Source: a virus
Length of the DNA stretch: 25,494 nucleotides
Virus record (IMG/VR): IMGVR_UViG_3300021085_000196
Coordinates: 1-25,494 of that record
Strand: one strand, 5' to 3'
Under the pieces are notes generated by a model. It was not told the DNA's origin. It made no database searches and saw only the letters and a program-made list of their open reading frames with translations. Positions 12,001 to 25,494 of this stretch are shown here, one piece after another. Positions within the stretch are counted from its first letter, which is position 1, and the number at the start of each line of letters is the position of its first letter. Made by a program: the position numbers and the translations under genes.

Positions 12001-13777
12001 GTTGTGCATCATCTGTGCCGGTTCCTATAGCATATGAAAAAATCATATTACCTGTAAATGTACTATCAGTATAATCAGCATAACTTACACCGGTATTATC
12101 AAATAATTCAAATAATGGTTGTTGATTAGCTAGTGTTTTTTCTTGTGTTAGATTCCAGGTTGTTCCGTTGTAATAAAACATACGTCCTTGATAATCTTGG
12201 CCGTTTAGTGCTAACACTGTTTCATTTTCTAAAGGATTAGAATCTTCTTCCTCTATTAAACTTATTTGTCTACGACCTTTATGAGTAAGAAATTTTATTT
12301 TAAATATTTTTCCTGCTTCGCGAATATCTTCTTCAGCAGTAAATAATACTCTCATGCCATCAACTAAATCAATACCATCTATGTTATAGCCTACTGATCC
12401 TTCAATTGTTGAGAAAATATCCTTTGTAAATGTATCAATTAAGTCAACATTTGTTTTATTAACTATACCAAAGTTCATTAACTTTAAATCTGCATTAAAT
12501 TCGATAATTGGTCTAGTAGCACGTTGTGCTTGGTCAATACTAATAGTTTGTCCGTTTGCTAATGCACTTTGTTCAATTACATCTTTATGGAACCATCGAT
12601 TATAACGACTCCACATATTTCTGTCTAAGCTACCTCTATTAATAATAATATAATCTTTAGATGCAGGATAACCATTTGCATTAGCAAACGGTAGTCTATC
12701 AAATGCGTTTATATCAAAAGGAACATCTTTATTTTCTGAATATGCTCCAGGTATTTCTAAATCTGTTTCTTTAATTAAGCGAATAGAACTGCCTACACCT
12801 TCTACATAAAAGTCGCCTTGACTGTAAATTTCAGGAGTCACAAATCCTGCAAATGATATTTTCATACCATTAGATAAACTTAATCCGTCTTTTGTAGTGT
12901 AACTAGTTTTTCCAATTACTTCTCGACTAACATCAATCTCGGTATTTTCTTCAATGTCTCGAATTTGTATTAATCCAGTATTATTAATATCGTCATCTGC
13001 AACATAATATAATATTTCCGGAGTATCATTTCTCACAGTAATTGTAATAGTGCCTTTTTCAACTGCTTGGTCACTAACACCGTCATTATAATTAAAACTA
13101 GATTCTAATGTACGCTTTGTTTTGAATGTTAAAGGTGCGCCAGGAGTTTCTATATCAAATGTGTATGTTTGTCCTCTATATAAAATTAATGTTGGATTAT
13201 TTACTAAATCATCTGTGCTGAAACTATAAGTGTTATTATCGACATTATTAATTAAACTTACAGCAATAGTACTTTCAACGCCTCGACTTTGTCCTGCAAT
13301 CCTTACTGTTTGAGGACCATAAGGAAGCCAATAATATTCACGGAAGTTTGTAAATTTATCCCAATCAATATTTGGGTTCCAAGCGTAATATTCCTGTGAG
13401 TTTAATACTTCTTGATTGTTAACGTCTCCGCCAAAACTGTTAATTTGGTTTAAATAATCGTTATAGTCTTTGTAAAAAGTTGTATTATCTAAATTATCTT
13501 TAATTAATGTAACTGGTTCAAATTGATAGTTTTCTCTTTGTACTGATACATCACCTACATAGTTGTCATCGGCGTTGTATGCTTTTGATACCTTCTTACC
13601 ATAATATCCGTTAAGTTTTTCAGCTACACCAGGTTGTGTAAGCTGATCTAATGTAGATTGTAAAAACTTTTTGTTAGCGTCAGTTCTAAAAAACTTAGGA
13701 AGAAATTTTTCACTTTTTCTATTAGTATTACCATCAGCCGGTAATGGATATTCGCTTTGGTCGTTTTCGTAAGCCAT
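1..13777 (-). CDS. Giant virion structural protein downstream of gp6 (C-terminus outside the window)
   Basis: The reading frame is open from the ATG at 13775-13777 to the left edge. I checked every codon and saw no in-frame TAA, TAG or TGA, giving at least 4592 residues (roughly 500 kDa). It starts inside the gp6 stop codon (TAATG), so translation is probably coupled to gp6. The N-terminus (MAYENDQSEYPLP, then a KFLPKFFRTD motif near residue 25) resembles very large structural proteins that follow gp6 in marine T4-like phages. Visible inside are FG-GAP-like propeller stretches (about residues 2070-2180 and 3110-3400), four short aromatic/glycine modules resembling CBM5/12, and glycine-rich GSGYT repeats near residues 3770 and 4110-4190. 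No signal peptide or catalytic motif was recognised. Its place after gp6 matches T4 gp7, but I see no clear gp7 similarity. A baseplate-peripheral, adhesin-like role is inferred. Confidence 0.88.
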   Translation of the reverse strand, partial: MAYENDQSEYPLPADGNTNRKSEKFLPKFFRTDANKKFLQSTLDQLTQPGVAEKLNGYYGKKVSKAYNADDNYVGDVSVQRENYQFEPVTLIKDNLDNTTFYKDYNDYLNQINSFGGDVNNQEVLNSQEYYAWNPNIDWDKFTNFREYYWLPYGPQTVRIAGQSRGVESTIAVSLINNVDNNTYSFSTDDLVNNPTLILYRGQTYTFDIETPGAPLTFKTKRTLESSFNYNDGVSDQAVEKGTITITVRNDTPEILYYVADDDINNTGLIQIRDIEENTEIDVSREVIGKTSYTTKDGLSLSNGMKISFAGFVTPEIYSQGDFYVEGVGSSIRLIKETDLEIPGAYSENKDVPFDINAFDRLPFANANGYPASKDYIIINRGSLDRNMWSRYNRWFHKDVIEQSALANGQTISIDQAQRATRPIIEFNADLKLMNFGIVNKTNVDLIDTFTKDIFSTIEGSVGYNIDGIDLVDGMRVLFTAEEDIREAGKIFKIKFLTHKGRRQISLIEEEDSNPLENETVLALNGQDYQGRMFYYNGTTWNLTQEKTLANQQPLFELFDNTGVSYADYTDSTFTGNMIFSYAIGTGTDDAQLGFPLTYRSIENVGDVVFNFDLLKRTFTYTDTNLETVSLGTDNGFLHKHSSRENFVSVNGWTKASSESTQRVLRQYTATRNQKNFIVDVYNDSAFLTDLNIRVTVNNDFKFEGVDFSIVNIDNNAVVQFNSELQTNDIVVLRSRSAATKNENGVYEIAGNLERNPLNNDVTSFTLGEVNEHVSSIVQEADSFFGNFPGVGNLRDIANPSQYGRRFLQHTGPINLALYHLTDKSANIVKSIDFARREYAKFKRLFLQTSTQLGFDGTPKAHVDLIFKELNKNKTSSLPFYFSDMVPTGGARLFTYTGIPNNKFYALSEAYDITKSDIKAVTVYVNDEQLIYGEQYSFNTDGFCEIEVPLTEDDQITIYEYENTDGSFVPPTPTKLGMYPKFVPQKFIDNSYLEPTEVIQGHDGSITRAYGDYRDDLLLEFEKRIYNNLKVSYDETVIDINDFIPGANRNTSISKDQIDTVMLKDFASWLSVVGDVDYTDFSFYERANKFTYNYSSMASPTGQQLPGYWRAIYKQAFDTDRPHTHPWEMLGFSIKPTWWETQYGPAPYTSNNLLMWQDLEKGIIAQPNVVKQIVDKYKRPNLTTYIPVDEQGNLLSPLDSGYAQNYVNRLTRSTFVFGDEAPVETAWRRSSEYAFSLFKAWVLLQPAKIIGLGFDRLRVQRNSADQIVYSETGKRIRLQDLVFPNNSTLETRTRIYTSGFVNLIANYLASNILVNYQEYQDNVKSITNQMAFKIGGFTDKSKFNLILDSRTPLSEGNVFVPDENYEVILQTSSPVELVTYSGVVIEKASSGYILRGYDSTRPSFTYYNFQPNEKDPIVNVGGISDSYVEWDSNQRYIEGSVVRNNGQFYKTTAGHTSTQVFDVSKFVKLSSLPQVGGRSAIFRTKFDKVFPQELPYGTLLKTTQEVVDFLIGYGEHLKDLGFVFDSFNNELETVENWKLSSKEFMFWTLQNWDSGALITVSPSAGKIQFKRDSLVVDNVFDTFYDYGLVKADGSKLKQEFCNIFRQDDNTFVLSLKNTADGIYSLKLPLVQKEHVVLLDNVTEFKDVIYDPEAGYRQERIRVLGYRTADWTGGLNIPGFVYDQAVTTEWTPYRDYAIGDVVKFKEFYYTATTKVGGTKDFVATNWYRLAEKPTPKLLTNLEYKTNQFADFYDLDTDNFDVGQQEVAQHLIGYQKRDYLANIINDDVSQYKFYQGMIQDKGTRNALTKLFDALGAADKESLEFYEEWAIRAGQYGAADGFDEIEFILDEENMKLSPQPVLLTDTITGDETDLVYRQRSSDVYVKPNEYTHTPFPTTYLSETPIKTAGYVRETDVRYVVRNKADILNLDIETVSEGDYIWVTFEGQEWNVYKHVDTVFTATGAVPLESNQAEIILDRISNFAIGSYIGLRNVADIDGFYEVVNVNLNRVTINLGESVLTEEETNLAGIVSTLISNRVGKLEDANKYAETDISKDELIWVDSVDDKNTWNVLKASNAYNFDEDITNPNNTADAFGDSIATDADNTFVAVGSPTDGEGKVHVYKREQDGSTVFGTLQPHQTLEPIANFDNGSSRYGDSVAMSPDGKHIVVGAPEATYVKSAFKDNFSFTSDYKLGSIVQYNGGLYKSRRRVFGRTDNVVFGTFDSVSRWRSELYKTYNNYLDLPILTTGDYPLKDVTTDHMLVRASADAFEGSNVGDRVYFDWNDLSNAYINQPGIDIVGLGMQIEEDGVIKPVTLTTRTDHGLQDGDAIILTDFANDNLTFRSDTFDNSDVNIPFDTIRQEGVKGLEGTTYYVKKLLDQQVELYRDPDLTVKLNGTVGFTGEPIGADPSNFNLGDGTIQGVIRKVNSPFNNTQPEITKAFLTETVHTIRRKVEDVFYIIDPVNTPNIPVTLTTTGVISTVNISVGDLIGQDNNTVIGTVNKINNNTIEVINVSGIFKTDGNLINKTSQTALEWTDLGSNTVPTDISTLIETGARVTTPTGNATVIYTRKELGRLVIYANDKNGVFDEDGELYINDQFLIGTYNRPLHDAIDRSDVLGGFWEIATDNSYIPGNTTSDNAYGLVISDVKNSYNPNAFTNPDATWRESTTRLPYNSSTQNALDNPVQVLGAIDQPFQKEVDLIRVLSHKSQGIAGDATEVDVLDSRWVVRMPKNVSDKVVSDPTTKVGVFLNDIRDVSGNLPDISDTGFGDDPYSIINTVQTPYDLWDGYIDFTHNSLIDFQVGDTVREGKTGATATVTYYQRDLNKCRIYVKDVAGIFTFGERYSGTVTEAMFLYKEVGIQQTFIGSTESRQLADEDIGKLAVFQHTENFVIPPKLTYAISSQTDEIADYETKFISGIEYQTWIEEFKPGLPRNPLVPSTENNDWQEVSNIPINVGRDASSFIKEGAFFVYSYNTETDNYDLVNGYILPNRENNRKLAADVKLINNDNFYRLVLNSEENHINDTDAVGGAGRVYFVIHGSNEFGEYNWQLGKNQNFKGVYSNTDSYYENQIVIYNDIFYKALTNLGDEEFDDTKWRLLSDHIDFVGYLPNTSGYVFPGDDSSIINLNTSTFGKTFDISKRGNTLATVAEYSTGNKLIIYTLKDNHFEYLTEFAAPQDSLGFGARVSVSNNGNLVAVSAPSTTGENLLQGKVYVYKNTSGTFNLHQTLESPNKELAEEFGLRLDFDGDQLIVTGSTSDIILETTFDRYLNRDTNSEATFNSKYVNDPQRELSVGQTTFDNGFTTHVSSVQDSGIVYLYENINDTLVFGQRLKYNNFNVKNFGKNAIVQDNTILVGLPALEGGKVAVYIKDSEARVWAVHRSPVIPVDINKMRGAFIYDTNKNVMLSRLDIIDPVLGKIAGIAEQELSYKTYFDPANYNIGNSSSKEALTSWNSKNVGKLWWDLSTVKFVDYHQGDIIYSNNIWGNLAQGASVDIYEWVESRVIPSQWDQRANTNQGIADGYSGQTKYGDAQYVEKDIYDNISQSFSKRYYFWVKDTKVVPNIEGRNRTGFDIANIIQDPAGQKLKFVTILGNDRFVVHNSNKLTNDNDVAINFRYWTINNQDNNIHTEYQIITDGLETSRPKDVIEEKWFDSLIGADKYNREVPDSSLSVKQKYGNQNRPRQSWFINRQEALKQFIERVNRVLINELAVDNLNLTKLTESDPLPSTLSGLYDSVIDTDEELRLVGTVRATQAILEPVVVDGSVTSVTLVNPGRGYKTPPKIVATGTGSGLELRANINTLGIITSVDVVNGGTYYKDDLTLSVRPLSTLVRADSTIGGAWSIYAWNDVTRTWSISSQRSYNVQDYWNYVDWYADGFSSLTAIDFLIDDFYQLNIIDDNIGDISKVSDVGSGGWILLEKIVNIDTPDYTTGYKTIGRENGTVEFSDKLYNTDQNSSTELRKILETVRDELFVDELANEYNQLLFASLRYVLSEQNYADWIFKTSFIKAKHNVGELKEKTTFQNDNLPSFEAYVEEVKPYKTKIREYLSAYDKLDNTQSVVTDFDLSPFYDPQRGEIISPKVTINDGVLSDINFDVNEFPQKNWIDNFTYSVTEILIESGGSGYTEVPSVIISGGGGTGATASAFIGSGQVKSIRVDNQGSGYTSIPTVNIEGTQAEDGEQPRVSIVLGNKKIRTINVKQKFDRITPNFETLNLKETETFISTGTELKIQLKWPLDLTKANVSVVIDGVEALDSEYSYNNESIKAAGETHTSEYGYIILERSRVTGTTIAVTYNKSYELLSAADRINLLYNPETGQYGKDLGQLMDGVDYGGVEVRSFEFGQDLGYDSRPWYTTEWDNYDENFDDESFPTTELQTSFTLSKPLEVDTTYNVYLNATRVDDINYDGSTKTYLADDGSTILALGNPNAIMKSLSTESDEYEVTTDASGLPVYKINIENVDEWEDYFQSGGTPEVAGVPADPEYNNGAISNVTGDGSDFFKREVTTNGVRIMGAGTVGGQTAVPDAWLEKVARMFELFLDPNGAGINEAFQRNLIKTLSGDAGTWHEGLPTLQRVARGAGADYTPNFLTDAGVISWNLTPLFDS
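1255..1470 (-). repeat. Glycine-rich GSGYT repeat pair near the visible C-terminal end of the giant protein
   Basis: Two consecutive units read E-S-G-G-S-G-Y-T-E-V-P-S-V-I-I-S-G-G-G-G and D-N-Q-G-S-G-Y-T-S-I-P-T-V-N-I-E-G. They are joined by an alanine/glycine stretch and a strand with V-K-S-I-R-V. A related, weaker unit (SVTLVNPGRGYKTPPKIVA) lies at about 2440-2515. Such GSGYT-x-x-P-x-V repeats are common in structural proteins of marine phages and probably form beta-solenoid or beta-sandwich segments. That fold is inferred. Confidence 0.6.
3601..4440 (-). other. FG-GAP-like beta-propeller region in the giant protein
   Basis: Residues about 3113-3393 contain successive short units of the type FGxxVSVSxxGNLVAVSAP followed by GKVYVYK, LHQTLESP and EEFGLRLDFDGD. 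Further on come GIVYLYE and FGKNAIVQDNTILVGLP with GGKVAVY. The alternation of FG-x-sv-(d/n)G-x-lv-vg-aP with a following vyvY strand is typical of FG-GAP/integrin-alpha-like propeller blades, which bind ligands or metal ions in adhesins. At least three blades are readable. The fold is inferred from the motif pattern only. Confidence 0.6.
4502..4615 (-). repeat. CBM5/12-like module 4 in the giant protein
   Basis: The module runs from Y-S-N-T-D-S-Y-Y-E-N-Q-I-V-I-Y-N-D-I-F-Y (about residue 3055) to D-D-T-K-W-R-L-L. The N-Q-I-V-I-Y-N-x-x-F-Y-K-A core matches the other copies except that N replaces the usual G. It lies just N-terminal to the second FG-GAP-like region. Confidence 0.45.
7091..7219 (-). 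repeat. CBM5/12-like module 3 in the giant protein
   Basis: The module starts with D-Y-K-L-G-S-I-V-Q-Y-N-G-G-L-Y-K-S (about residue 2187) and ends with F-D-S-V-S-R-W-R-S-E-L. It lies immediately C-terminal to the first FG-GAP-like stretch and has the cleanest G-x-I-V-x-Y-N-G-x-x-Y-K signature of the four copies. Confidence 0.45.
7240..7560 (-). other. FG-GAP-like repeat pair in the giant protein
   Basis: Residues about 2073-2180 contain two adjacent units: DAFGDSIATDADNTFVAVGSP followed by GKVHVYK and LQPHQTLEP, then RYGDSVAMSPDGKHIVVGAP. These are close to the FG-GAP blade consensus and to the blades near residue 3200, including the shared VYVYK and HQTLE stretches. Two blades alone do not close a propeller. 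The rest may be diverged, or blades may pair with another chain. Confidence 0.6.
8594..8713 (-). repeat. CBM5/12-like module 2 in the giant protein
   Basis: The module begins with W-T-P-Y-R-D-Y-A-I-G-D-V-V-K-F (about residue 1689), continues with FYYTATT and ends with the typical tail D-F-V-A-T-N-W-Y-R-L. It has the same spacing of aromatics and glycine as the other three copies, with F in place of the usual YNG turn. Confidence 0.45.
9371..9490 (-). repeat. CBM5/12-like module 1 in the giant protein
   Basis: This module of about 40 residues starts at about residue 1430 with W-D-S-N-Q-R-Y-I-E-G-S-V-V-R-N-N-G-Q-F-Y-K and ends with F-V-K-L. The pattern Y-x2-G-x2-V-x-Y/N-N-G-x2-Y-K followed by a hydrophobic end about 20 residues later recalls chitin-binding type 3 (CBM5/12) modules. 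It recurs three more times downstream in the same protein. Sugar binding is inferred. Confidence 0.45.
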
Positions 13778-16700
13778 TAGTAACTATAGCCTCCACTTGA
13801 TGAACTAGATGATCCAGAGGAACTACTTGAATTATTTGATCCTGCTGAACTTGAATTAGACACACTACTTGAGCTGCCTGAATATGATGCTGGTGTTGAT
13901 ACTGCTACTCCTGGAGAGCTTACAATATTTGACTGTACTGTTGTTGTTTCGTCTGCATATATTGCGCCATTGGCTTTTAATTTTGACGCAGTAAGCGATG
14001 TTACAACTTCAATATTTTCTACTGTAGCAGAACTTACAAATATTTCATCCGCTTCTGATTTAACTTCAAACATGCTTCCAAAAGTTAAACCTTCTTGCAA
14101 AGGAACAATTACAAAAGCAGACAAATTAGGTGCTATTTTACTCATTACATATGTACTAAGTTCAGTAAAATAAAATGTGTCTCCGAACTCCCAATTTTCA
14201 ATTGCAAAAAACTCATTAATAGCACCTATTACAGATGCTTTAATTTCGTTATCGTTTACAACACGATTAGGATTTTTAACTATTTTAAATGTTGCTTTCA
14301 AATCTTCAGACGAGTCCTTTCCAAATAATACTTTGTACTTAACCGGATGATAAATTACTTCGTCACTGATTGACTTTATTGAATTAATATCTTCGCCAAA
14401 GTTTACAAAAAGTGCATCACTACTTGGTGCTAGTGGTTTTATAGTCGAACTACTCTGTAAATATTGTCTAAATGCAGTATCATACTGTTTTGTTAGCATA
14501 TAGACATCGATTATATTTGAACTACTAGGATCTATTCTATTGCTTTCGTCCGCAGCATGTTCGTATTGGAAAATAATATCGTCTCTACCTTCGTATGCAC
14601 GATAATTTACAACTAGTTCTAATAATTCGGTAGTTGTATTATATACTTTAAATATGTCTTTATCAATTATATAAAATACACTGTTGTCAGGATAAGTTGT
14701 TACACCATTATCTATAATTTCTTGCTCATTTAAAACTGGTTTTATTAATTCGCTTGTAGAATTAACATATCTAAAGTCGTCGATGTTATCAGTTGTTATG
14801 TACTCTTTTAAAAATATAAATTTATTTTTATCGTTAGTAGTAACAAACTTTGTAAAAATTTCTGGATCATCAACTACGCCATCGTCATCTGAATCAAAAA
14901 AACCAATTTCTACTTTTTTACTATCTACATATCCTTCTGCATCTCTGTATTCTTTTATAATTTCCCAATTAAAAGGTACAGTAAACGGAGTAAGTGCATA
15001 CCCACTTGCAATTGGTTGCGTATTAATACTCATCAAACTAATTTTATCTTTTACAATTTGATTAGTTATTGGATCATAAACTTTGTCCGAACTATCATAA
15101 TAAAATCTTATTTCTTTATCACTTTCGAATACGTATCTCTGTCCTCTGGAAGTAATAGTGTAGGTTTCTCCGTCAGTTTCAAATAATAATAACCAACTTG
15201 AATCAAGATTTTGATTTGTTAGATCTCCTGTTTTACCTGTACTAAACAAAGACTGAGTATCAAGATTTGGTTCTAATACTACACGCCAAGTTGTAGTATT
15301 GAAATCATATCGTAGACCAAAAGTTTTATATGTAAACACTTGATCAATAATTTGTGTTTGAATCTGAGTTTCAATACCTGTCACAAATACTGGTTTAATT
15401 TCTGTAAGTAATGGAGCAGTATTTAAGTCACCGTTAATTGCACCAGGTATTATATCGTTAAGAATAATGGCGCCTAGGCCTTCGTTTGTATTATCAACAC
15501 CAGGGCCGTTAACACTTACAACCTTAGTCCATTTATAAGTAGTAGAGCCTGGATGATCAGCAGGTCCAGCCATTATAGTGCCATCTGGCATAAAATGATA
15601 ACCTTGCGGCGCAGTAAATTTTAACATTGATCCTGGTTCTAAAAATTGTAATGTTGAACCAGTAAACGACCCTGTTCTTAATTTAGACAAATCTGTATCT
15701 GTTAAGTATCCAGTTGAAATATTTTGTGCTTTAGTTACTTGATTCCAACGTGCGCCTAAATCGCTTACTAATATTTTAGAAAACTTTGCATAGTAAAAAT
15801 TCTTAGTTTTATAATCACTTATAATTCTTTCAATTTGATTTTTTATTACGCCTTCAATATCTGTTCGTGTATTAAATGTAAAATTTTCTTTACTAGTAAG
15901 ATTTTGTGTGTAAATTACGCCATCTTTACCGTATAAGTTTGTTTTACTATATTTTCCGGTTGCATCAAGTAAGTCATAATATCTACTAATACCGCTTGAT
16001 GTTCTGTTCACACTTTTTACTTTTATAATTTCTTGACTAACTGCTAACGGCGCAATATTATAATCTTCACCTGTAACCATTCTATTTTGTGTATAGTATG
16101 TTGCAGGAGCGTTTGCTTTTATTTCTTCATTTGTTTCTGAAGTAGTGCCGTTGTCAATTGTATATTTTAATTCTAAACCAATAGTAAGTTTTTCGCTAGT
16201 ACCTGATTTACTTTGATACGGTATACTAATTGTAATATTAATTAATTCATCTGGTGTAATTACATAGCTTTTATTTTCACTAACTCTATAATAAACTTTA
16301 AAGTTACCTTTAGGAAGTTCACCGAATGTTCCGTCACTAAAAATTAAACTAATTCTATCTTCAACTCTAGTTAGCACTGAATAAATGTTTCTTATGTTTT
16401 TACTTAAACTGTTATAAACAATATTATTGCCTTCAATTGCATCAACTTTTGTCCACAATTCTGATTCATTGCCTATACTATCTAACTTGTATAGCCAAGT
16501 GTCAGTGTTGTTTACATCTATTGCATCAAGTGCAACTACTTGGTTAGTAGAAGGATTAGAAACATTAAAGTTTCCTTGATCTAATCTACCTTGTCTAAAG
16601 TGTGCAAAAAATCCTGTATTTGAGCTTCCTGCGCCTTGGCCGTCATCTCTATATAAAAAAGCAAAGTTATTGCCTGGCAACGGTGCTTCTTCTGTAATTT

Positions 16701-17367
16701 CTGTGTTTTCTAAACCAGTCGATACTATTTCAAAATTTGTATTTCTTCCGTCAACACTTTTACTAAATGCAAATACAGGAATATCTGTATTTGTTCCGTT
16801 TACTCTATATTGTTCTGCACTTACTCCATTTACTGTTGCTGTTTTTACAGGACGACCATATACTGAGTTTGCAGGAAGTGACGAATTTAAAACTTTAATA
16901 AATTGTTCGTACCAATCTTGATTTGAAATGTCGTTCCAGAGTACAGTTTGTCCTGATAAGTTAGTGCCATTAGAATCATATAATTCTTCAGTAGTGCTTA
17001 CAGTTTCAAATTTTAGTAATCCATTAGCTGCTTGGTTACGTTTAGGATTATAGGAAAGCAATCTTGCTAAACGTAATACACTTTCGCGGCGTTCTGCTAA
17101 TTCTAAGAAATTTTCACGAGCATTTAAATCAATACGATAGCTAATATTTTGACCTAGGAAAGCTATAAGGTCAATTAATGCTAAGTATTCACTTGATTCA
17201 ATATAGTCATTAAAATCCTCTGGATAATTTTGACGTATATAGTTAATCATAGTTCTACGCAAATTGTCAAAGTCATAGCTTTGGAAATCTGCGTTACGGA
17301 ATGATTGGTAGACTCGCTTCCAATCTTCCGCTAGTAATAATCTGTTCTGTCTGTCTGTGCTTGACAT
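13777..17367 (-). CDS. 6: Baseplate wedge subunit gp6
   Basis: This 1196-residue protein matches the gp6 family: the N-terminal region (RQNRLLLAEDWKRVYQSFRN, then DLIAFLGQNISYRIDLNARE around residues 65-85) and the C-terminal region with KYKVLFGKDSS and FGDTFYFTELSTYVM are typical of T4-like gp6 wedge proteins. In T4, gp6 forms the inner wedge ring that ties baseplate wedges to the hub. The protein is far longer than T4 gp6 (about 660 residues), so the middle is expanded. The last 40 or so residues are almost all Ser, Gly and Asn, ending SSSGGYSY. The start is supported by an AAGGAAAG ribosome site at 17373-17380, 5 bases before the ATG. A late-promoter motif lies upstream. The stop overlaps the start of the giant gene by one base. 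Confidence 0.95.
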   Translation of the reverse strand: MSSTDRQNRLLLAEDWKRVYQSFRNADFQSYDFDNLRRTMINYIRQNYPEDFNDYIESSEYLALIDLIAFLGQNISYRIDLNARENFLELAERRESVLRLARLLSYNPKRNQAANGLLKFETVSTTEELYDSNGTNLSGQTVLWNDISNQDWYEQFIKVLNSSLPANSVYGRPVKTATVNGVSAEQYRVNGTNTDIPVFAFSKSVDGRNTNFEIVSTGLENTEITEEAPLPGNNFAFLYRDDGQGAGSSNTGFFAHFRQGRLDQGNFNVSNPSTNQVVALDAIDVNNTDTWLYKLDSIGNESELWTKVDAIEGNNIVYNSLSKNIRNIYSVLTRVEDRISLIFSDGTFGELPKGNFKVYYRVSENKSYVITPDELINITISIPYQSKSGTSEKLTIGLELKYTIDNGTTSETNEEIKANAPATYYTQNRMVTGEDYNIAPLAVSQEIIKVKSVNRTSSGISRYYDLLDATGKYSKTNLYGKDGVIYTQNLTSKENFTFNTRTDIEGVIKNQIERIISDYKTKNFYYAKFSKILVSDLGARWNQVTKAQNISTGYLTDTDLSKLRTGSFTGSTLQFLEPGSMLKFTAPQGYHFMPDGTIMAGPADHPGSTTYKWTKVVSVNGPGVDNTNEGLGAIILNDIIPGAINGDLNTAPLLTEIKPVFVTGIETQIQTQIIDQVFTYKTFGLRYDFNTTTWRVVLEPNLDTQSLFSTGKTGDLTNQNLDSSWLLLFETDGETYTITSRGQRYVFESDKEIRFYYDSSDKVYDPITNQIVKDKISLMSINTQPIASGYALTPFTVPFNWEIIKEYRDAEGYVDSKKVEIGFFDSDDDGVVDDPEIFTKFVTTNDKNKFIFLKEYITTDNIDDFRYVNSTSELIKPVLNEQEIIDNGVTTYPDNSVFYIIDKDIFKVYNTTTELLELVVNYRAYEGRDDIIFQYEHAADESNRIDPSSSNIIDVYMLTKQYDTAFRQYLQSSSTIKPLAPSSDALFVNFGEDINSIKSISDEVIYHPVKYKVLFGKDSSEDLKATFKIVKNPNRVVNDNEIKASVIGAINEFFAIENWEFGDTFYFTELSTYVMSKIAPNLSAFVIVPLQEGLTFGSMFEVKSEADEIFVSSATVENIEVVTSLTASKLKANGAIYADETTTVQSNIVSSPGVAVSTPASYSGSSSSVSNSSSAGSNNSSSSSGSSSSSSGGYSY

Positions 17368-17392: not shown

Positions 17393-17400
17393 TATTTATT
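17393..17400 (-). promoter_or_regulatory. Late promoter motif upstream of gp6
   Basis: The minus strand reads AATAAATACTGTATC, matching the T4-like late-promoter core NATAAATA and also the CT following it. It lies in the 61-base gap between gp25 and gp6, 25 bases upstream of the gp6 start, with the ribosome site in between. Recognition by gp55-bearing RNA polymerase is inferred. Confidence 0.65.
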
Positions 17401-17428
17401 AAGATTAGAAAAGTACGTATTTAATTCT

Positions 17429-22969: not shown

Positions 22970-23269
22970 TTAATATCCTAAAAATTTCTGTAATTGATTT
23001 TGTTGTGGTAAAAATATTTTAATCCCGGCTTCTAAATCAAATACAGGATCTTTTAATACATCCATATTTCTTTGTGCAAACACCCACCAAAGTTTAGGTG
23101 TTCCATAAACTGAGAATGCTAATAAATCAGGCCTGTGTGTAAATTGTGGCTGTACTTCGTATAATACATCAGAATCACTTTTAGGAATTGGACGTATTTG
23201 TAATACATTTAAACTTCCTCTAGTAATTCTTGTCTTGCCATATGGGCTTGTAGCTCCGTAAGATGCCAT
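22970..23269 (-). CDS. 53: Baseplate wedge subunit gp53
   Basis: This 99-residue protein matches the gp53 wedge family, which in T4 closes the wedge-to-wedge contacts when the baseplate assembles. The diagnostic stretch is in the middle: FTHRPDLLAFSVYGTPKLWW followed by VFAQRN, D-V-L-K-D-P-V-F and the LysM-like I-K-I-F-L-P end. It is about half the length of T4 gp53 (196 residues), which is usual for the marine version carrying only the core. The ATG sits in the gp48-like gene's stop (TAATG), so the two genes are translationally coupled. Confidence 0.88.
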   Translation of the reverse strand: MASYGATSPYGKTRITRGSLNVLQIRPIPKSDSDVLYEVQPQFTHRPDLLAFSVYGTPKLWWVFAQRNMDVLKDPVFDLEAGIKIFLPQQNQLQKFLGY

Positions 23270-24117
23270 TAGATAAATCCTCCATTACCAAGATAATCAC
23301 CTTTAACAAACTTATCAAGACTAAACTGTGATGTTTTTGCTCTTGAGTATATTGGTGTACATGTTATCATAACTTGACTTTGTACTGGTGCCCACCCTTC
23401 ACTAAGTCCACTTACTGTTGTACCTTCGTTATCAACTTCTACAGTGCCGTCAACTTGAGTTTTGATATAATCAACATCCGAAGGTAAATCAACACTAAAC
23501 GTTTTAATAATAACCGGAACATTTGGAAATACAAAATCTCCGTATCCGTTTAAGAATACTATAGGCGGTGGTGAACCAGCATTTGAACTTTTTCCGTATG
23601 CCATTTTGGTAACACTTCTTAGATAATGAAGTGTAGCTGCCCAATACTGTGCATCTACTGCATTTTCGCAAAAGAAATCGCCTGTAATAACAATATCGTC
23701 AATTTGGCTGTTCTGATACTGTGGGAAAGGATAATTACTATGTGTAGGATGCATTGCATCGTAATTAGCTGAATGCTGAATTAATATTGTAGGAGTATAT
23801 GGAAAAACTAATCCGTCAGTTTCGTCAAGTGGTTTAAGTATACCATCTTTAGGCATTGTTGACGGTATGCTTAATCGGACTCGCCAATCGCTACTAGTGC
23901 CAGGAGGCTGTGCAGCAGTTTCTGTTTTTAATGTTGGGTTAGATGATGGTCCTCCAAGTAATGACTTTAATATACTTGCAGCGCCGCCGCCCAAAGCATT
24001 ATCAAGAGCATTGTTAACAAGATTATTGCCAAATTTTGAAGCCTTGTTTTCAATGTCGCTTGTAAAGTTCTTAACATTAGATTGAACAACGCTTTTGAGT
24101 TTGTCGCCGAATGCCAT
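23269..24117 (-). CDS. 48: Baseplate tail tube cap protein, gp48-like
   Basis: This 282-residue protein is the first gene of the minus-strand late block. It resembles proteins annotated as gp48 (baseplate tail tube cap) in marine T4-like phages: a low-complexity helical N-terminus (residues 1-60), DWRVRLSIPS near residue 77, LVFPYTPTILIQHSANYDA near 104, YPFPQYQNSQIDDIVITGDF, YWAATLHYLRSVTKM and a C-terminal VMITCTPIYSRAKTSQFSLD. The repeated short beta segments fit a tube-like beta-barrel that would connect hub and tail tube. gp54 is a related alternative. The start is firm: AGGAGA at 24125-24130 lies 7 bases before ATG, and a late-promoter motif lies 23 bases upstream. Confidence 0.78.
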   Translation of the reverse strand: MAFGDKLKSVVQSNVKNFTSDIENKASKFGNNLVNNALDNALGGGAASILKSLLGGPSSNPTLKTETAAQPPGTSSDWRVRLSIPSTMPKDGILKPLDETDGLVFPYTPTILIQHSANYDAMHPTHSNYPFPQYQNSQIDDIVITGDFFCENAVDAQYWAATLHYLRSVTKMAYGKSSNAGSPPPIVFLNGYGDFVFPNVPVIIKTFSVDLPSDVDYIKTQVDGTVEVDNEGTTVSGLSEGWAPVQSQVMITCTPIYSRAKTSQFSLDKFVKGDYLGNGGFI

Positions 24118-24140
24118 AATTAGTTCTCCTATTATACTAT

Positions 24141-24147
24141 TATTTAG
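24141..24147 (-). promoter_or_regulatory. Late promoter motif upstream of the gp48-like gene
   Basis: The minus strand reads CTAAATAATAG. CTAAATA matches the late-promoter motif I recall for marine T4-like phages, a variant of T4 TATAAATA. It is 23 bases upstream of the gp48-like start, leaving room for a short leader with the AGGAGA ribosome site. It directly abuts the -35 box of the oppositely directed gp55 promoter. Confidence 0.65.
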
Positions 24148-24176
24148 TTGACAAAATTATATACGTAGTTTATAAT
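24148..24176 (+). promoter_or_regulatory. Consensus host-type sigma-70 promoter for gp55
   Basis: TTGACA (24148-24153), a 17-base spacer and TATAAT (24171-24176) make a perfect consensus promoter. The expected transcript start is about 24182-24184, giving a leader of about 17 bases that contains the gp55 ribosome site. This suggests gp55 is transcribed by unmodified host polymerase before late expression. Confidence 0.88.
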
Positions 24177-24189
24177 AGAGTAATAACTT

Positions 24190-24194
24190 GGAGA
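24190..24194 (+). promoter_or_regulatory. Ribosome binding site that fixes the gp55 start
   Basis: GGAGA lies 5 bases before the ATG at 24200. The in-frame TTG at 24188 overlaps this site and is therefore unlikely to be the start. Confidence 0.85.
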
Positions 24195-24199
24195 AATTA

Positions 24200-25042
24200 A
24201 TGCGAAGAAAAAATTATCTTAACAATAAAGACATGTTAAAGGAAATACATAAGTCAAAAAGTTCGTTTTGTAGTTTTATAGAGCCGACATACAATCAATA
24301 TGACATCATATTGCTCGATACTGCTAAAATTAATATACGAACTATTGCAGAAGCAAAGCGAAATAAAGCAAAAAGATTAACATTGGCAGACTTTGAGGCT
24401 AGAAAATTAGCCGGAGAAAAAGTAAAACAAGCACAATGTGAAGTAGATTACAGAAAAATTACAAAAGAAGAACTAATTTTCCGTATTATGACATTTGATC
24501 ATATTCCAGAAGAGCCAGGACGTAAAAAGAACCCTAAAACAATAGCAGATACTAAAGTTAAACTAAATTTCCCTCCATTTCAGCATTACAAGTTTAACGA
24601 CGAAGGAGAATTAGTTTTAGTTGGTAAAAGTCATTGGGAAGGCGGCATGGAAAACGGACACTTTAGTATGAAACATGCTAAAGCAACAAACGAACTTGCT
24701 CGTATGTGGATTAAATTATGTGAACGTTATGCAACAAGAGGAAATGTACGTGGATATACATACAACGACGAAATGCGAGGACAGGCAATCTTACAATTGG
24801 CACAAATTGGTCTACAGTTTGATGAATCAAAGTCCAACAATCCATTCGCTTATTATACAGCCGCCGTTACAAACTCATTTGTACGAGTTATTAACCTTGA
24901 AAAACGAAATCAAAACATTAGAGACGACATCTTAGAAATGAATGACATGAATCCAAGTTATACTAGACAGCATAACGCAGAATGGGAAGCTGCCATGAAG
25001 CGAGAGCATGATATAGCAAACAAAGCTACCAAAAAAACTTGA
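24200..25042 (+). CDS. 55: Late transcription sigma factor gp55
   Basis: This 280-residue protein is the T4-type sigma factor that directs host RNA polymerase to late promoters. The N-terminus has KNYLNNKDMLKEI, close to YNYVNNKELLQAI in T4 gp55. The core (about residues 190-240) has GYTYNDEMRGQAILQLAQIG, FDESKSNNPFAYYTAAVTNS and FVRVINLEKR, lining up with the T4 region-2-like segment. Between these lies an insertion of roughly 100 residues, charged and with KKNPKTIADTKVKLNFPPFQ, so the protein is much longer than the 185 residues of T4 gp55. The C-terminus is basic (ANKATKKT) and shows no hydrophobic clamp-binding tail of the SLDFL kind. It has its own consensus promoter. The stop TGA lies inside the next promoter. 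Confidence 0.93.
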   Translation: MRRKNYLNNKDMLKEIHKSKSSFCSFIEPTYNQYDIILLDTAKINIRTIAEAKRNKAKRLTLADFEARKLAGEKVKQAQCEVDYRKITKEELIFRIMTFDHIPEEPGRKKNPKTIADTKVKLNFPPFQHYKFNDEGELVLVGKSHWEGGMENGHFSMKHAKATNELARMWIKLCERYATRGNVRGYTYNDEMRGQAILQLAQIGLQFDESKSNNPFAYYTAAVTNSFVRVINLEKRNQNIRDDILEMNDMNPSYTRQHNAEWEAAMKREHDIANKATKKT

Positions 25043-25067
25043 CATTAGGCTAAAAAGATAGTAATAT
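25039..25067 (+). promoter_or_regulatory. Sigma-70-like promoter for gp47, overlapping the gp55 stop
   Basis: TTGACA (25039-25044), a 17-base spacer and TAATAT (25062-25067) form a promoter with a perfect -35 and a 4-of-6 -10 box. The gp55 stop codon TGA (25040-25042) is part of the -35 box. The leader resembles that of gp55 (GGAGAA-x-TTAAT). Confidence 0.6.
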
Positions 25068-25093: not shown

Positions 25094-25494
25094 TTGTTTA
25101 AGAAAGCAGCCGTCTTTACTGACATCCACTTTGGATTAAAAGGTAATAGTAAAGTTCACAATAACGATTGTGAAGAATTTGTAGACTGGTACATCGAACA
25201 AGCACAAAAGAACGGTTGTGAAACCGGTATCTTCTGCGGCGATTGGCATCATAATAGGAACAGTCTTAATCTAACTACTATGGACGCAACTATTCGTAGT
25301 TTAGAAAAACTAGGTAAAGCATTTGATAAGTTTTATATGTTTGTAGGCAATCACGACCTGTACTATAAAGACAAACGTGACGTGAGTTCTACTATATTTG
25401 GTAAACATATCGACGGCATTACATTTATTGATGAAATGTATACTGAAGATGATGTTACACTAGTGCCTTGGTTAGTTGGCGATGAGTGGAAAAA
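25094..25494 (+). CDS. 47: Recombination endonuclease subunit gp47 (Mre11/SbcD-like), 5' part
   Basis: The first 133 codons of a calcineurin-like phosphoesterase are present and run off the right edge. Metal-binding motifs in order are F-T-D-I-H-F-G near residue 10, GDWHHNRN near residue 55 and VGNHDLYYKD near residue 87, followed by T-L-V-P-W-L, which matches L-I-P-W in T4 gp47. With gp46 (SbcC/Rad50-like, not in the window) it forms the nuclease complex that resects DNA ends for recombination-dependent replication. The start is a TTG. The neighbourhood fits: gp55 and gp47 also lie close together in T4. A separate host-type promoter precedes it, so it is probably expressed early to middle. 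Confidence 0.92.
   Translation, partial: MFKKAAVFTDIHFGLKGNSKVHNNDCEEFVDWYIEQAQKNGCETGIFCGDWHHNRNSLNLTTMDATIRSLEKLGKAFDKFYMFVGNHDLYYKDKRDVSSTIFGKHIDGITFIDEMYTEDDVTLVPWLVGDEWK

Follow-up and report, generated by a model that had tools for sequence, protein, structure and literature searches.

A conserved 36-bp element in which the promoter of a gp55-like late sigma gene and a divergent T4-type late promoter appear interleaved

The 25,494-nucleotide stretch of viral DNA analysed here (IMG/VR virus record IMGVR_UViG_3300021085_000196, positions 1 to 25,494; hereafter the window) raises the question of how a gene for a late sigma factor can share its upstream region with a late promoter that reads the opposite way. 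To our knowledge, little has been described of how T4-type phages restrict their late sigma factor or take it out of use. A preliminary description of the locus had proposed a compact negative-feedback switch from early to late expression, in which a polymerase carrying gp55 on the late motif would cover the -35 region of the gp55 promoter and could shut off gp55 transcription. The features of the locus are as follows.

22970 to 23269, minus strand: gp53-like baseplate wedge gene (phrog_7145, E 4.9e-24)
23269 to 24117, minus strand: virion structural gene with its ATG at 24117, leading the divergent baseplate cluster (phrog_12050, E 8.1e-52)
24124 to 24129, minus strand: Shine-Dalgarno sequence GGAGAA of the divergent structural gene (from the sequence)
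24141 to 24147, minus strand: T4-type late motif CTAAATA, read as TATTTAG on the plus strand; predicted start ~24135; 23 bp to the divergent ATG (from sequence and comparison)
24148 to 24153, plus strand: -35 element TTGACA of the gp55 promoter (from the sequence)
24157 to 24172, no strand assigned: 16-bp dyad TTATATACGTAGTTTA, consensus TWAANTRYGYANTTWA; candidate operator or upstream element (from intergenic enrichment)
24171 to 24176, plus strand: -10 element TATAAT of the gp55 promoter, after a spacer of exactly 17 bp; predicted start ~24183 (from the sequence)
24190 to 24195, plus strand: Shine-Dalgarno sequence GGAGAA of gp55 (from the sequence)
24200 to 25042, plus strand: gp55-like late sigma factor gene, 280 aa, ATG at 24200 (PHROG profile matches)
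25094 to 25494, plus strand: gp47/SbcD-like nuclease gene downstream of gp55, cut by the window end (phrog_100, E 6.1e-33)

Read directly, the minus-strand CTAAATA ends at 24147 and the plus-strand TTGACA begins at 24148, as the preliminary description had it, and the gap between TATTTAG and TTGACA is therefore zero. The gp55 promoter (24148-24176), TTGACA-N17-TATAAT, matches the host sigma-70-type consensus at 12 of 12 positions. With CTAAATA taken as -12 to -6, the convention of PMC1524935, the leftward late start is predicted at ~24135, near the position 24134 given earlier, and about 48 bp from the rightward start predicted at ~24183. Two other candidates at the locus were rejected: a minus-strand TATAAT at 24131-24136 has no fitting -35 and would place its start inside the Shine-Dalgarno sequence, and a search of Rfam for an RNA element gave no match. 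The window has CTAAATA four times where 10.5 occurrences would be expected, and the motif shows no excess over a reversed control in 30 related contigs; since it is not over-represented, the window alone cannot decide between chance and a real element at 24141-24147.

The gene behind the TTGACA promoter was correctly named as gp55. The PHROG matches of its product are phrog_12791 (E 6.5e-81) and phrog_234 (E 5.6e-23, residues 157-276), and its sole PDB relative by profile is T4 gp55 (7d7c, E 1.9e-10, with 7d7c residues 23-115 aligned); the phrog_234 and 7d7c matches indicate homology to T4 gp55 in sigma region 2. T4 gp55 covers none of the N-terminal part of the protein, and these ~150 residues, which are extra relative to both T4 and cyanophage gp55, are kept across jumbo phages. 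The C-terminal tails in the alignment, where a hydrophobic/acidic sliding-clamp epitope would lie, are short, variable and mostly charged, and Pfam models for gp45 gave no match in a search whose control was also silent. The minus-strand genes downstream of the late motif encode structural, gp53-, gp5- and gp25-like products and are thus virion (late) genes, and the gene at 23269-24117 is placed as in RaK2, 121Q, CBB and MIJ3, as judged by annotated neighbours. A promoter-like TTGACA-N17-TAATAT was also seen at 25039-25067, ahead of the gp47-like gene, where relatives have similar sites.

We then turned to the late motif in related phages. When sequences upstream of genes were compared in the window and seven long relatives, no 7-mer was more enriched than ATAAATA (47-fold), and most of its copies stand 16-30 bp ahead of a start codon; CTAAATA is a minority form of the late motif in these phages. 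The window itself holds a second late motif, together with a second copy of the dyad.

17393 to 17399, minus strand: late motif ATAAATA upstream of the gp6-like gene 13777-17367 (from the sequence)
17409 to 17424, minus strand: second copy of the dyad, 9 bp from this late motif (consensus match)

The orthologous gp6-like promoter has ATAAATA in six genomes and CTAAATA in two, and because the two forms interchange at orthologous sites, the motif at 24141-24147 was counted as T4-type. On this comparative evidence the late motif is a real element in these phages. The whole window contains no copy of TATAAATA, where 5.7 would be expected by composition, which suggests that late motifs are avoided inside genes. 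Several relatives also keep a pair of late motifs that face each other, ATAAATA-N24-TATTTAT, in the interval between divergent genes, at 45471-45508 in G007 (where the flanking genes look structural), 87278-87315 in G005, 69709 in G015, 102148 in G020 and 50572-50609 in G016; at these loci, named L109, L086, L092, L106 and L117, late transcripts of the two directions would have overlapping 5' ends.

For comparison of the gp55 locus we used 80 IMG/VR relatives of the window's gp55 (75-89% identical), in which the promoter could be aligned by anchoring on TTGAC...TATAAT in 78 sequences including the window (66 distinct). Conservation of the spacing in related phages, proposed earlier as a check, holds in the window's own clade, as TATTTAG touches TTGAC in 76/78 loci of the anchored alignment (64/66 distinct). 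A 1-bp deletion in L069 and L080 gives a TATTTAT that overlaps TTGAC by one base, with both elements retained, and in L051 the layout at gp55 differs from that of the other relatives. The gp55 spacer is 17 bp throughout the aligned set, and TTGAC is invariant and TATAAT almost invariant among the 66 distinct sequences, partly as a result of the anchoring. Of 30 contigs, 27 hold the composite of late motif and TTGAC just once, and there it stands at the gp55 locus. That TATTTAG might be a piece of a general early promoter was rejected, TATTTAGTTGAC being found once per contig and being absent from other TTGAC promoters, and no late motif lies within 60 bp upstream of other TTGAC promoters in eight contigs. 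L078 and L079 carry a tandem pair of TTGAC-TATAAT promoters before gp55, with the composite in the upstream one.

A scan of IMG/VR viral contigs for the composite, in which the base before TTGAC was left free and gaps of up to 20 were allowed, gave a similar picture. The two elements abut in 137/138 of the pattern matches listed, and the base before TTGAC in the abutting ones is G in 119 and T in 18, never A or C. Among the matches listed, gp55 lies directly downstream in 130/138 and a divergent structural gene is present in 127; seven of the eight without gp55 directly downstream are at contig ends, and the eighth has a different gene and a gap of 20. The T form, which is the canonical ATAAATA on the minus strand, occupies the same position in 17 distinct contexts whose gp55 is mostly 58-76% identical to that of the window. 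As judged from these alignments, the late motif at the gp55 locus switches between two known spellings while its position stays fixed. Mean pairwise identity reaches 83% over the 36-bp composite (24141-24176), whereas the flanks stay at 36-37% and the 4-fold sites of gp55, for which saturation is 36%, at 45%. In these sequences two other distances are free to vary: 5-18 bp separate the late motif from its Shine-Dalgarno sequence, and 21-65 bp the -10 from the gp55 start. Since the flanks and synonymous sites are near saturation, the identity of the composite points to selection and not to descent alone.

The dyad at 24157-24172 fills the gp55 spacer, runs into the -10 and, on the upstream side of the late motif, is separated from it by 9 bp, at late-promoter positions -22 to -37. 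The gp55 spacer is constrained in the window's clade to TTA-N5-GTA, with TTA and GTA nearly invariant, a constraint that spacers of other TTGAC promoters do not have. Allowing up to one mismatch, 20 of the 31 matches to the consensus TWAANTRYGYANTTWA are intergenic, although non-coding DNA makes up 3% of the sequence, and 200 permuted palindromes used as a control gave a mean of 2.5 intergenic matches out of 41.7; the enrichment is somewhat circular, in that the gp55 locus accounts for 5 of the 20 intergenic matches and also contributed to the consensus. The window, G001, G015, G010 and G016 have the dyad 9 bp from the late motif of the gp6-like promoter with no more than one mismatch; the other genomes have partial matches there, and elsewhere the dyad overlaps late motifs at other spacings. 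An upstream element general to late promoters was rejected, given that 70 other late sites yielded at most 0.2 bits per upstream column; by sequence, only a subset of late promoters carries the dyad. In about 15 of the 66 gp55 spacers CAGA replaces the dyad centre. This alternative centre, TTAWCAGAGTA, is a discrete form (e.g. in L005, L006 and L066), and other sites of G020 retain the TACGTA form despite the CAGA-type gp55 spacer of that phage.

We found no close relative in culture, and more distant phages show a looser arrangement. In clade 2 (relatives of PA5oct-like gp55) the late motif lies exactly 35 bp from TTGAC in 24/34 distinct cases and the gp55 spacer is not conserved, whereas a dyad-like ATAAA-N8-TTTAT is conserved at a distance of 7 bp from the late motif and recurs 7 bp from another ATAAATA (G031, 101473). 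At the gp6-like promoter of clade 2 no late motif was found at that start. As the dyad-like sequence of clade 2 stays with the late motif while the gp55 promoter is 35 bp off, the dyad is most simply read as part of the late promoter. Divergence of gp55 from a structural cluster was found in RaK2, 121Q, CBB, XaC1, MIJ3, Vibrio 2.275.O and SCTP-2, and likewise in Phosso and Atu_ph07, there with one extra gene between, and a minus-strand late motif lies between gp55 and the cluster in all nine; in cyanophage ACG-2014b gp55 is not in a divergent arrangement. The gap between late motif and -35 in cultured jumbo phages ranges from 0 (Atu_ph07) to ~79 bp (Phosso), some of the -35 calls being weak. 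In Atu_ph07 the late motif is followed after 8 bp by TTAACTACTAATTTAA, with no obvious -10, and a search for relatives of this phage found only Atu_ph07 itself. The gaps in clade 2 and in the cultured relatives indicate that tight overlap is unnecessary for the life cycle in general.

Starting from the sequence, the gene identities, the conservation of the elements and their fixed geometry, we favour, at a probability of roughly 0.6, the reading that the 36 bp at 24141-24176 form a shared element of interleaved opposite promoters, which would switch from early gp55 to late baseplate expression by mutual exclusion. What we infer is which proteins occupy the element, that they exclude one another and which way the switch runs. 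In the rightward direction, the host-type TTGACA-N17-TATAAT promoter would drive gp55 and probably gp47 too, and in the leftward direction the T4-type late promoter ([C/A]TAAATA with the dyad 9 bp upstream) would drive the baseplate genes. The gp55 promoter would thus be threaded through the late promoter, with TTGACWWWW in the 9-bp linker and the dyad in the spacer and the first bases of the -10. The abutment can be explained by this interleaving, since the gp55 -35 sits in the linker between late motif and dyad, and the two promoters appear better described as interleaved opposites than as merely touching.

Host-sigma polymerase, gp55 polymerase and any dyad-binding protein would be expected to exclude one another at such an element. 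Mutual exclusion of the two holoenzymes is likely from known RNAP footprints, given that the elements interdigitate and the starts are only about 48 bp apart, and with early and late promoters woven into one nearly invariant stretch, their simultaneous use is probably impossible. In T4, the contacts of late complexes reach to about -39, and activation by gp45 lengthens the footprint by 13 bp on the upstream side (PMC2988020). The gp55 promoter would be in use in the early phase; as gp55 accumulates, the late promoter would be engaged, the host polymerase displaced, gp55 transcription lowered and the baseplate genes turned on.

A simple shut-off of gp55 by its own product fits less well. TATAATAAATA, in which ATAAATA is fused to the gp55 -10, occurs in 14/141 distinct contexts, which may partly share ancestry (carriers include L035, L039, L044, L061, L066, L136, L195 and L226), and may give the late sigma gene a promoter that serves both early and late. 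With a late motif on its -10, gp55 could transcribe its own gene late, which counts against simple shut-off. Of the feedback switch proposed in the preliminary description, the two elements and their conserved spacing within the clade are thus borne out, whereas simple gp55 negative feedback is weakened by the TATAATAAATA contexts, by the variable gaps and by the interleaving explanation; occlusion in the opposite direction, or via a dyad-binding protein, could fit as well.

The last of these leads to a possible, though clearly less probable, reading, in which a phage-encoded dimeric regulator on the dyad acts on a subclass of late promoters (baseplate, gp6-like) and blocks the gp55 promoter, with no polymerase competition. 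The enrichment of the dyad between genes and its identical 9-bp spacing at two late promoters are what such a regulator would leave, as are the conservation of the gp55 spacer in the window's clade and not in clade 2, the dyad-like sequence kept 7 bp from the late motif in clade 2 and at G031 101473 despite the distance of the clade 2 gp55 promoter, and the TTAACTACTAATTTAA site of Atu_ph07 beside its late motif in a place with no obvious -10. However, we identified no candidate protein, the dyad takes other spacings to late motifs elsewhere, its centre is absent from about a quarter of gp55 spacers, and the consensus is partly circular. We hold as somewhat more doubtful still the specific form in which the upstream dyad defines a late-promoter subclass for a putative phage regulator, so that one binding event would turn the baseplate genes on and gp55 off.

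Simple compactness, two independent and uncoupled promoters inherited in a short divergent gap, would suit compact phage genomes with a coding fraction of 96-99% and the other gaps of the cultured relatives, but it seems unlikely to us in view of a geometry that is frozen while flanks and synonymous sites approach saturation and start-codon distances vary freely, and of a sole junction change, the 1-bp deletion, that kept both elements. Positive coupling, by which rightward gp55 transcription would leave negative supercoils that help to open the divergent late promoter and turn on the baseplate genes, is if anything slightly less probable again. It agrees with the divergent layout with starts 48 bp apart and with the far higher level of basal gp55-RNAP transcription on supercoiled DNA compared with relaxed DNA (PMC2988020), yet gp45-activated late transcription works on relaxed DNA (PMC2988020), and coupling of this kind requires neither the exact abutment nor the fixed spacer, both of which are frozen.

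The interleaved element preferred here belongs to a large group of uncultured marine phages and, being frozen and tying the gp55 promoter to a late promoter, offers a directly testable site. Our results also suggest that late promoters in this group can carry an upstream element beyond the 8-bp box, unlike the T4 model; in T4 late promoters the upstream DNA is not conserved (PMC7892883, PMC2988020). We found no report of interleaved gp55 and late promoters in the literature.

In terms of known systems, the locus combines two established kinds, T4-type late promoters and overlapping divergent promoters. T4-type late promoters (TATAAATA; NATAAATA in S-PM2; ATAAATA in CBB and GAP32) resemble those described here in motif, in distance to the start codon and in the structural genes downstream, and here a gp55 homologue is encoded next door; the differences lie in the CTAAATA variant at the gp55 locus and in the dyad 9 bp upstream at two promoters. 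The late promoters of Aeromonas phage Aeh1 are known to carry CTAAATA (PMC1524935), with C at -12 as here; this is the rule in Aeh1 and a minority form in the present phages, where ATAAATA is general, although almost all gp55 loci in the window's clade have it. In RB49 and S-PM2, early and late promoters overlap (PMC2984593) and likewise set timing through a shared control region, but there both promoters are described upstream of the same genes, whereas here they are divergent and one drives the late sigma gene itself. In the jumbo phages CBB, RaK2, 121Q and the PA5oct-like MIJ3, gp55 and a baseplate cluster diverge on either side of a minus-strand ATAAATA; for CBB, a gp55 behind a TGAAACG-type promoter and ATAAATA late promoters have already been described (PMC5259590). 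The gap between late motif and -35 is ~2-4 bp in the RaK2/CBB group, 22 bp in MIJ3 and ~79 bp in Phosso, whereas in the window's clade the two elements abut.
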